Under the pieces are notes generated by a model. The model was not told the DNA's origin, ran no database searches, and saw only the letters and a list, made by a program, of their open reading frames with translations. A stretch of 64,000 nucleotides of DNA. Origin: Oscillospiraceae bacterium (lineage in GTDB: Bacteria; Bacillota; Clostridia; Oscillospirales; Oscillospiraceae). Each line of letters opens with the position of its first letter. The first letter of the stretch is position 1. Below, one piece after another: positions 34,260-36,715 of this stretch. Both the position numbers and the translations under genes were made by a program. The stretch covers positions 1 through 64,000 of the forward strand of contig JAAWSV010000002.1 of assembly GCA_022801715.1 (NCBI GenBank). Reading direction: 5' to 3'.

Positions 34260-34448
34260 ATGGCAGTCCCCAAGGGTAAAGTCTCCAAGGCAAGACGTGA
34301 CAAGCGCCGCAGCTCCCACTGGAAGCTGGCGGTGCCCGGTCTGGTCAAGTGCCCCAAGTGCGGTGCTATGCGCCTGCCCCATAGAATGTGTCAGGAGTGC
34401 GGTACGTACAATGGCCGTCAGGTCAAGGTTGTTGATGCTGCTGACTAA
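34260..34448 (+). CDS. rpmF: 50S ribosomal protein L32
   Basis: 62 residues, the zinc-binding four-Cys form ([18 protein letters not shown]). [22 protein letters not shown] is the conserved N-terminal half. GGAGG is 8-9 bases before ATG 34260. A strong terminator follows directly. Confidence 0.97.
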
Positions 34449-34483
34449 AAAAGAAGAAGGCCGCAGGGCCTTCTTCTTTTTTT
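34447..34483 (+). terminator. Terminator after rpmF
   Basis: AAAAAAGAAGAAGGCC pairs with GGCCTTCTTCTTTTTTT across a GCAG loop. Strong intrinsic terminator. Confidence 0.94.
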
Positions 34484-35129
34484 GTCGTTGGGGAGGGGGA
34501 GACGGGGGACGGTGTGCCGGGGGCGGCGCGGCCGATGGGGGATATCGGGGGTGCGGTTGGAAGCGGGGAACGGGCCGGTGGGGACACCGGCCCCTGCGGG
34601 CGGGTGGTAGGGGGCGCCTGCGGGGAATCCCTTCACCGCTTTGGGGCGGTTGGCTTTGAGACACGCCTGCGGGCGCACAATACCCGCAAGGGGCACGCCG
34701 CATCCGTAAGCGGCAGAGCCGCCAACAGCTGCGCTGTGTGCGCCCCTACATGCGGTATACCGAAGTATTCCGATTAACGGGGGACGGGCCGGCGGGGACA
34801 TCGGGCCCTGCGGAGGGTGTTTTATTGGGGATTTCCGGAGGACGGACACGGCGCGCCGGGTCGTCGCGCCCTACAAAGATTTACGCAACAACAACATTAC
34901 CGGCAAGTACGGCGGCATTTGCCGCACTATGCCAGCGATTTGGCCTCTAAGTTCCGGAGGCAAGTCGGGCGACGGAGGCAGAGCGGCAGCGGGGGCTTAT
35001 AGCAAGGCTAAAGACGGGGGGATGCTTTCAGGACACCTTTATTTGTGCGGGAGTCACCGCTGCCGCGTCCGAAGCGCCAAGCTGAAAATCAAGCACCAGT
35101 CTGCCGAAACAGCGTCGTAACCTGGGGTT
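34484..35129. other. Non-coding, repeat-rich region (first part)
   Basis: About 650 bases without a credible gene; the short ORFs here have no recognisable motif. It contains a diverged direct repeat (ACGGGCCGGTGGGGACACCG at 34570 and ACGGGCCGGCGGGGACATCG at 34784), local hairpins such as GGGCCGGTG/CACCGGCCC and GCCGC-ATCCGTAA-GCGGC, and G/C-rich decayed-looking sequence. The segment 34870-35110 is less G-rich and has an open frame ending in a TAA at 35118-35120; it could be a remnant gene but matches nothing I know. Confidence 0.5.
34570..34813 (+). repeat. Pair of diverged direct repeats with internal hairpin
   Basis: The unit ACGGGCCGG(T/C)GGGGACA(C/T)CGG(C/G)CCCTGCGG occurs at 34570 and 34784, 214 bases apart. 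The first copy folds into a perfect 9-bp stem; the second has substitutions. Confidence 0.65.
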
Positions 35130-35320
35130 CTTAGGGGGGCGGGCGTAAGGACTGTGCCCCCGGAAGGGGGCTAAAGTCCGCCGGCCCGTCCCCCTAAGCG
35201 CGCTTTTGCTGACTTTTCTCGTGTGAGAAAAGTCAGTCGCCCGGGGGCGAAACCCCCGTCTCCTGTCCCCGCGTGGGGGACGCGCCAAGGCTGAGGCGCC
35301 GCTCGCCGCCTTTTGGAAGT
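35130..35320 (+). ncRNA. Cluster of consecutive hairpins, possible structured RNA
   Basis: It opens with a 69-base three-tier hairpin (35130-35198): a 15-bp stem (CTTAGGGGGGCGGGC paired with GCCCGTCCCCCTAAG, one G-T), an internal loop, GGACT/AGTCC, a second internal loop, then GCCCCC-GGAA-GGGGGC with a GNRA-type tetraloop. Next come CTGACTTTTCTC-GTGT-GAGAAAAGTCAG (12 bp), CGGGGG-CGAAA-CCCCCG and GTCCCC-GCGTG-GGGGAC, then AAGGC/GCCTT. No protein is encoded. Whether it is transcribed is unknown; the strand is assigned by the GNRA loop. Confidence 0.5.
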
Positions 35321-35325
35321 TTCCC

Positions 35326-35354
35326 TTGAATTATTAGGAAAAATTCAGTATACT
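35326..35354 (+). promoter_or_regulatory. Promoter of the DUF512 gene
   Basis: TTGAAT, a 17-base spacer and TATACT. A second -10-like TATAAT lies 19 bases further on, within a direct repeat of GTATACTAT, so two start sites are possible. Confidence 0.65.
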
Positions 35355-35410: not shown

Positions 35411-36715
35411 ATGAGCACCATCATCACCTCCCTTGATCCCCGCTCGCCCGCACAGCGGGCGGGCGTCCGCTGCGGAGAAAAGCTGATCGCCATCAACGGG
35501 CACACTGTCACCGATGTGCTGGACTACCGCTTCTTCGGCTATGATTCCAGTCTGGAGCTGGTGCTGGAGAGTGAGGGGGGACAGCGGCGCACCCTCCGGG
35601 TGAAAAAGAGCGAGGGGGAGGAGCTGGGCCTCAACTTTGACACCTATTTGATGGACAATCCCACCCCCTGCTCCAACCACTGTCTGTTCTGTTTCGTGGA
35701 CCAGATGGCTCCCAATATGCGCTCTACCCTCTATTTTAAGGATGACGACGCCCGGTTGAGCTTTTTGATGGGCAACTATATTACCCTCACCAACCTCTCT
35801 GACCGGGAGACGGCGCGGATTATGGAGCTGCGGATCAGCCCCATCAATGTCTCTGTCCACGCCACGGACCCCAAGCTCCGGTGTACCCTCTTGGGGAACA
35901 AGGACGCCGGGAAAAGTTTGGAGACAATGCGCGCTTTCGGGGCGGCGGGGATTGCCATGAATGGGCAGATCGTGGTCTGTCCGGGGTGGAATGACGGTGA
36001 GCAGCTGCAAAAGACCATGGCGGATATGGAGGAGATGGGCTTCGTCAGCTGTTCCGTGGTTCCGGTGGGGCTCACCAAGTACCGGCAGGGGCTGTGCAAG
36101 CTCCGGCCGGTGGAGCGGTCGGAGGCCCAGACGATCATCGCCATGGTGGAGGAGTTCGGGGCGCAGTGCCTTCGGCGGCACGGGGAGAGGCGGTTTTTCT
36201 GCTCCGATGAGCTGTACTTGAAGGCCGGCCTGCCTCTGCCGGAGGAGGATTTCTATGAGGGCTATGTCCAGCTGGAGAACGGCGTGGGGATGGTCCGCAG
36301 TCTGATGGAGGAGTTTCGCAGCGGTCTGAAGCTGTCGGAGGCGCCGGCGGGGGAGAGACGGGTGGCCTTGGCCACCGGGGTGTCCTGTGCCCCGTTTCTC
36401 CGGGAGCTGCTAAGGGAGCTGACGGCGCGGTATCCGGAGGTGCAGGGGACGGTGTACCCCATCGTCAACGACTTCTTCGGCCACACCATTGATGTGGCGG
36501 GGCTGGTCACCGCCGGGGACTTGATCCGGCAGCTGGCGTCCCATAAAGAGGAGCTGCCGGACAGGCTGCTGCTGCCGGTGAACATGCTGCGCCACGGGGG
36601 GGACGTGTTTTTGGACGACCTCCGCGTGAGCGATGTGGAGGCGGCGCTGGGCGTGAAGGTCCGGGTGGTGGAACAGGACGGATTCGACCTGCTGGACGGG
36701 ATCTTGGAGGAGTAG
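35411..36715 (+). CDS. DUF512 family protein: PDZ plus radical-SAM-like iron-sulfur domain
   Basis: 434 residues. An N-terminal PDZ-like domain (SPAQRAGVRCGEKLIAINGH) precedes a CxxxCxxC cluster (CSNHCLFCF) near residues 87-95, as in radical-SAM proteins, followed by GNYITLTNLSDRE. The C-terminal DUF512 part contains ATGVSCAPFL and VNDFFGHTIDVAGL. The family is widespread in Firmicutes and cyanobacteria; its reaction is not established to my knowledge. It is often encoded next to der, as here with one gene between. The SD is AAGGAG. Confidence 0.88.
   Translation: MSTIITSLDPRSPAQRAGVRCGEKLIAINGHTVTDVLDYRFFGYDSSLELVLESEGGQRRTLRVKKSEGEELGLNFDTYLMDNPTPCSNHCLFCFVDQMAPNMRSTLYFKDDDARLSFLMGNYITLTNLSDRETARIMELRISPINVSVHATDPKLRCTLLGNKDAGKSLETMRAFGAAGIAMNGQIVVCPGWNDGEQLQKTMADMEEMGFVSCSVVPVGLTKYRQGLCKLRPVERSEAQTIIAMVEEFGAQCLRRHGERRFFCSDELYLKAGLPLPEEDFYEGYVQLENGVGMVRSLMEEFRSGLKLSEAPAGERRVALATGVSCAPFLRELLRELTARYPEVQGTVYPIVNDFFGHTIDVAGLVTAGDLIRQLASHKEELPDRLLLPVNMLRHGGDVFLDDLRVSDVEAALGVKVRVVEQDGFDLLDGILEE

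Follow-up and report, generated by a model that had tools for sequence, protein, structure and literature searches.

The run of hairpins between rpmF and the DUF512 gene makes up the 3' third of a dispersed repeat of ~375 bp, located at positions ~34891-35265 of the window (the whole 64,000-nucleotide stretch of Oscillospiraceae DNA that was analysed). We regard it as nearly certain that this feature is a dispersed palindromic repeat. The explanation we favour, with a probability of about 0.62, is that it represents one copy of a non-autonomous repeat of the REPIN/BIME/MITE style, in a one-tailed form, which a trans-acting enzyme once spread and which is now kept and shuffled mainly by recombination and gene conversion. 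For the narrower proposal that dispersal proceeded via an enzyme recognising the folded tail, we would give about even odds.

The hairpins are the 3' part of a repeat present in 40 copies

A preliminary description of this region listed a 69-base three-tier stem with a GGAA loop, a 12-bp stem with a GTGT loop and two 6-bp G/C stems. All of these stems are present, and the predicted folding energy of the region is -120.2 kcal/mol versus -91.9 +/- 4.7 for shuffled sequences (z = -6.0); the minus strand gives z = -5.6. The gap of roughly 1 kb in which the hairpins were said to lie is borne out, with rpmF stopping at 34448 and the DUF512 gene starting at 35411. These two genes are co-oriented, and the gene downstream of the hairpins matches DUF512/radical SAM. 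The region contains a pair of short ORFs of 86 and 63 aa, which overlap each other; neither matches a Pfam family. What had been described is the 3' part of one copy, because the element begins ~240 bp further to the left (~34891). The features of the locus are as follows.

34480 to 34890, no strand assigned: other dispersed G+C-rich modules (GGGGACGGGCCGG.., GCGGGCGCACAATGTGCGCCCCTACA) left of the head, from the alignment of copies
34891 to 35119, plus strand: head of the repeat, ~230 bp; conserved block in the 40-copy alignment, found only in G000 and G001 among the 40 genomes searched
35130 to 35198, plus strand: three-tier hairpin (hairpin 1), 69 nt, tiers of 15 + 5 + 6 bp, loop GGAA
35203 to 35208, plus strand: CTTTTG tag, unpaired, included in the tail pattern that crosses phyla
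35209 to 35236, plus strand: hairpin 2 of the tail, NNNACTTTT...AAAAGTNNN, 12 bp, loop GTGT; pattern match and compensatory change
35237 to 35258, plus strand: TCGCC of the tail and hairpin 3 (CGGGGG-CGAAA-CCCCCG); alignment of copies, helix 6 95.5% paired
35265 to 35281, plus strand: last 6-bp G/C stem (arms 35265-35270/35276-35281), outside the conserved end

The outer arms of hairpin 1 (35130-35144/35184-35198) form 15 pairs, one of them G.T, and enclose the middle arms (35149-35153/35175-35179, 5 bp) and the inner arms (35156-35161/35166-35171, 6 bp) with the GGAA loop at 35162-35165. The arms of hairpin 2 are 35209-35220/35225-35236, and those of the G/C-type hairpin 3 are 35242-35247/35253-35258 (6 bp).

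We used window positions 34870-35345 as a query against the window's own genome, a 2.77-Mb draft that is 93% complete (G000). This search recognised 40 copies, 72-84% identical to the window copy and distributed over many contigs, often at contig ends. The block conserved across the aligned copies runs from ~34891 to ~35260-35265, with most copies ending near 35260, and the order of its parts is head, three-tier hairpin and tail (CTTTTG tag, hairpin 2 and hairpin 3). Nearly all G000 copies, including the one in the window, are one-tailed. Among the 40 genomes searched, the whole element was present in two, G000 and its closest relative G001, which has at least 17 copies; no full element was detected in the 38 other related genomes. 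At the position of the last stem, other copies have a different G+C-rich palindrome (CGCGCCG..CGGCGCG). Past hairpin 3 the copies diverge, and some bear another chain of hairpins. An alternative 3' chain (GGGAAAGGATGTGTGAAGGAAAACC..GGTTTTCCTTC.. plus more hairpins) was seen within or after hairpin 2, downstream of hairpin 1, in L021, L022, L012, L026 and L030, and several copies bearing it sit at contig ends. To the left of the head, positions 34779-34795 are a perfect 17-nt complement of part of the hairpin-1 3' arm (35178-35194), as if the arm had been copied from the module.

The preliminary description had left open whether the hairpins were a non-coding RNA or belonged to a repeat family. 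The latter is upheld by the 40 copies and their retained pairing, while a dedicated single-copy ncRNA gene is not supported, because the site is not conserved, Rfam gives no match and the GNRA-type loop is not conserved. The Rfam scan that had been proposed as a check returned no family for the window at the gathering threshold; at a permissive threshold, five copies gave only weak microRNA/CsrC scores, which we take as chance. A search of the window for tRNA and tmRNA genes found none.

Base pairing is conserved among the copies and in tails of other bacteria

The structure of the window was imposed on 31 copies from the two closest genomes (G000 and G001). In this alignment, 86% of the cells pair, and 11 base pairs show changes on both sides. 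The number of double-change cells is 75, versus 28.8 in shuffled alignments, and none of 500 shuffles reached 75. Support is unevenly distributed over hairpin 1: its inner two tiers are 98-99% paired, with double changes, and its outer tier is 66% paired, most copies retaining just CTTAGG/CCTAAG and several inner pairs of this tier forming in five or six of the 31 copies. The GGAA loop is present in few copies. The full 15-bp outer stem and the GGAA loop characterise a minority subfamily, and neither is conserved across the copies. Hairpin 2 (helix 5) shows compensatory change among copies of the window family, and the RNAalifold consensus gave weaker support for the head.

The tail was also analysed in other bacteria. 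Forty-two distinct 45-nt tails contain 44 double-change cells versus 8.7 after shuffling, a value not reached in any of 500 shuffles. Three NNN pairs covary in these tails (GTT/AAC, GGT/ACC, CTT/AAG, CCT/AGG, GTG/CAC, GAT/ATC, TAT/ATA and TGT/ACA). The search pattern already contained the ACTTTT/AAAAGT core, so the invariance of this core is no evidence. Conservation of pairing in relatives, which had been suggested as a check, is seen as compensatory changes both among copies of the two closest genomes and in other bacteria. The tail stem has 22 G.T and no A.C mismatches in the 42 tails, although many of these share ancestry and do not represent 22 independent events. Folding of the outward strand in single-stranded form, either as RNA or as DNA, would be expected to leave such an asymmetry. 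In the window's own family the excess of G.T is absent, hairpin 2 having six A.C and no G.T.

The CTTTTG tail is found in distantly related bacteria

The terminal module of the wider family is CTTTTG-NNNACTTTT..AAAAGTNNN-TCGCC. The tail pattern has one match in the window, at hairpin 2, versus 0.00 expected. For the searches within the genus and across genera we used the pattern CTTTTGNNNACTTTTN{4,16}AAAAGT. This pattern occurs 21 times in G000 and 2-49 times in nine of the ten other genomes of the genus, compared with at most one match per genome for the control. Of the 66 genera sampled, 12 contain it, and the control gave practically no matches. CTTTTG was included in the pattern for the cross-phylum search. 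In the genome collection, the longer pattern matched at least 118 stretches, whereas by our own estimate ~0.1 chance match is expected. Among the matches listed are Xanthomonas, Pseudomonas, Aeromonas, Cupriavidus, Polaromonas, Acidovorax, Aggregatibacter, Halothiobacillaceae, Desulfuromonadales, Clostridia and others. Tails are also present in Paraburkholderia, in which several chromids have ~40 copies each, and a replicon of Ilyobacter polytropus, a relative of Fusobacterium, contains six. Tails also occur in 23 plasmid records, and 22 of these are non-mobilizable and for the most part large replicons. The phages searched contain no match to the element, and E. coli searched with the tail consensus contains none either.

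A search of the open-access literature by sequence and by keyword, with subscription literature outside its scope, returned no description of the CTTTTG tail, and we provisionally regard the tail family as undescribed. With somewhat less than even confidence, we propose that a single tail superfamily crossing phyla constitutes a third large class of bacterial dispersed palindromes beside the GTAG and CGTC classes, with lineage-specific structured heads, of which TwoAYGGAY would be one, and with its own putative mobilising enzyme that would read the folded outward strand. If this is true, a hairpin-tailed repeat common to Firmicutes and Proteobacteria, at tens of copies per genome, would have remained unnamed so far on account of heads that are different in each lineage. 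It would also help to account for assembly breaks and spurious small ORFs in such genomes, and would provide a concrete search for a new mobilising enzyme.

Outward-facing tails cap near-palindromes

Neighbouring tails less than 1.5 kb apart face outward in 18 cases and inward in six (p = 0.023). The outward tails often cap both ends of near-palindromes of 0.5-0.9 kb, the heads of which are lineage-specific. Within the genus, the near-palindromes between outward tails measure 530-920 nt, some being only partly paired along their length, and one in an Acidovorax MAG measures 697 nt with a folding energy of -594 kcal/mol. At three wide-spaced outward-tail loci, for which the ORF listing alone was consulted, no obvious transposase was recognised as an autonomous partner.

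In the genus relatives G004 and G007, further nested palindromes (CCTTCCCCC..GGGGGAAGG) lie inside outward tail pairs (L227-L234), which suggests that palindromes were inserted into the centres of palindromes. Two insertion sequences apparently lie within tail-pair regions of Paraburkholderia: an IS256-family element in strain MBA4 (L215:22958-24875) and an IS5-family element in strain F2 (L218:4600-6300).

Possible mobility and turnover of the repeat

Comparisons of orthologous sites show that the repeat differs in presence and in form between related genomes. At a site whose flanks are 95% identical, the whole composite takes up 575 bp in G001, compared with 39 bp in G000. No clear target-site duplication was found at this site; a 39-bp scar remains, and deletion is as possible as insertion. 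At another site in G001, the tail is retained and the head is missing. The compared region of P. caribensis contains tail pairs ~500 bp apart, and the 100 kb of P. phymatum that were compared have no tails, including at two or more intergenic sites orthologous to P. caribensis pair sites. The element between rpmF and the DUF512 gene is at a site common to G000 and G001. In the other genomes of the genus that were read, the region downstream of rpmF contains no element, and a terminator and other sequence are present instead.

Eleven orthologous copies were compared, of which six are 87-98% identical and five are 67-84% identical, with flanks of ~90-97% identity; two copies at one site may thus be as different from each other as unrelated copies are. 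Copies that differ by this much beside such similar flanks have therefore probably been replaced or converted in place. Within G000, no pair of copies is more than 90% identical in the aligned core, and spreading in this genome therefore looks old.

According to the explanation that we favour, an enzyme acting in trans would recognise the folded tail in a single strand and would thus spread the repeat, as for REPINs and MITEs. Spreading in the host species would mostly be old, and the copies would now be retained and shuffled mainly by recombination and gene conversion. Copies lying 3' of genes and oriented with transcription would be tolerated. In the genomes analysed, we found no tail-linked mobilising gene.

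A RAYT was considered as the mobiliser. The Y1 (RAYT-type) transposase model PF01797 has no match in G000. It does have a few in G001, G006 and G010, but tails are absent from their vicinity, and on these grounds a RAYT was rejected as the mobiliser.

The repeat as a possible structured RNA element

A rather unlikely but better-surviving alternative is that the repeat is a multi-copy structured RNA or 3'-UTR element. According to this alternative, transcription of the gene lying upstream would continue into the copies, and the RNA, once folded, would stabilise the ends of mRNAs, prevent read-through or titrate a protein that binds RNA, for instance CsrA. The wobble asymmetry described above would fit RNA as well as single-stranded DNA. 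Moreover, the head faces the 3' end of a same-strand gene in 23 of 30 G000 copies (p = 0.005, with heuristic gene calls); this is compatible with copies being tolerated behind genes, with an effect at the RNA level or with a bias in replication strand.

Annotated RNA families overlap tail-bearing elements of other bacteria. In several gammaproteobacterial loci, the Rfam family TwoAYGGAY (RF01731), with scores of 45-60 bits, is located directly 5' of a same-strand tail, the gaps ranging from -2 to 87 nt; some matches end at the first bases of the tail.

L114:4857-5024, L168:107-274, L140:220-387, L173:416-583 and L079:601-768, same strand as the tail: TwoAYGGAY plus tail (Rfam)
L139, L102, L129, L084 and L077, same strand as the tail: further TwoAYGGAY plus tail loci (Rfam)
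L111:4504-4604, minus strand: AaHKsRNA22 (RF02902) of Aggregatibacter, ending 14 nt before a tail

Because AaHKsRNA22 ends 14 nt ahead of the tail, the tail-bearing element overlaps an annotated sRNA. TwoAYGGAY is listed among probable RNAs, with gut metagenomes, gammaproteobacteria and Clostridiales as its sources (PMC2864571), and binding to CsrA has been proposed for it (PMC4333381). It is sometimes present in both halves of an outward pair, and has the look of a head belonging to a dispersed palindrome; if the proposal made above for the tail family is true, a listed RNA family would be recast as part of such a palindrome. G000 has four CsrA homologues and G001 six, an unusual number; two or none were found in the other members of the genus that were searched. 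Together, the wobble asymmetry, the co-orientation with genes and the overlap with annotated RNA families point towards possible RNA-level effects of the repeat.

Several observations stand against this alternative. The window and its copies have no Rfam match, and the RF01731 model in particular matched neither the window nor, with permissive filters, five copies. The G.T excess is missing from the window family, and the sites of the repeat are not conserved between species. A single transcript of an outward pair would hold just one tail in the folding orientation. As for CsrA, the GGA of the head is often AGA in the alignment of copies, and G004 and G007 have 48-49 tails and no CsrA that we could find. 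A search for TwoAYGGAY in the order of the window's host gave matches in none of 147 genomes, which is a weak result, as few candidates were scored per genome and the control was unmatched everywhere.

A CsrA sponge was considered separately for the window family. It was rejected on the unconserved GGA of the head and on the tail-rich relatives in which no CsrA was found.

Comparison with known repeat classes

Less probable still is that the repeat is a REPIN or BIME of the RAYT-mobilised GTAG class, or of the CGTC class, and differs only in being longer. REPINs, which consist of two REPs in inverted orientation, owe their mobility to RAYTs (PMC3116915). Many REPs belong to one of two classes, tagged by GTAG or by CGTC, and no transposase is linked to the CGTC class (PMC3733652). 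Our repeat resembles these in that it is extragenic, is present in high copy number and consists of palindromic units, with a predicted fold as single-stranded DNA or mRNA and no autonomy. The arrangement typical of REPINs, two inverted hairpin units ending one replicative unit, is seen in relatives and in Proteobacteria, whereas the G000 copies are nearly all one-tailed. However, its units and spacers are several-fold longer, with 320-740 bp between tails compared with ~70-110 bp between REPIN units. The tail hairpin is not adjoined by a GTAG or CGTC tag but by CTTTTG. REPINs are tied to a RAYT gene, which this genome lacks and which in relatives has no tails nearby, and one CTTTTG tail sequence spans a much wider phylogeny. 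By its tag and the lack of a RAYT gene, the window repeat does not qualify as a member of the REP/RAYT group.

It is very improbable that the hairpins serve to terminate transcription or to regulate the rpmF-DUF512 region in cis. They are strong and lie between two co-oriented genes, but rpmF is already served by a terminator at 34443-34486 and the hairpins are not followed by a T-run. Moreover, the element is not behind rpmF in the other genomes of the genus that were read, yet is present at 40 unrelated sites.

With MITEs (long terminal inverted repeats), the dispersed repeat shares non-autonomy, inverted repeats (in relatives), copy number and presence or absence between related genomes; it differs in that each CTTTTG end is a double hairpin, the window form is one-ended and the one near-empty site shows no clear target-site duplication. 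In several gammaproteobacterial loci, TwoAYGGAY holds the position of the head immediately 5' of the CTTTTG tail and on the same strand, but the window head does not match it, and the existing description of the family is that of a candidate RNA rather than of a piece of a dispersed palindrome. CGTC repeats are likewise dispersed palindromic units, often paired, with an unpaired tag at one end and no associated transposase. Their stem is 8-9 bp with a loop of 4-5 nt, in contrast to the CTTTTG tail with its stem of 12-15 bp, second hairpin and long head. CGTC does follow hairpin 3, a stem of 5-6 bp, in the G000 copies, but not in those of relatives.
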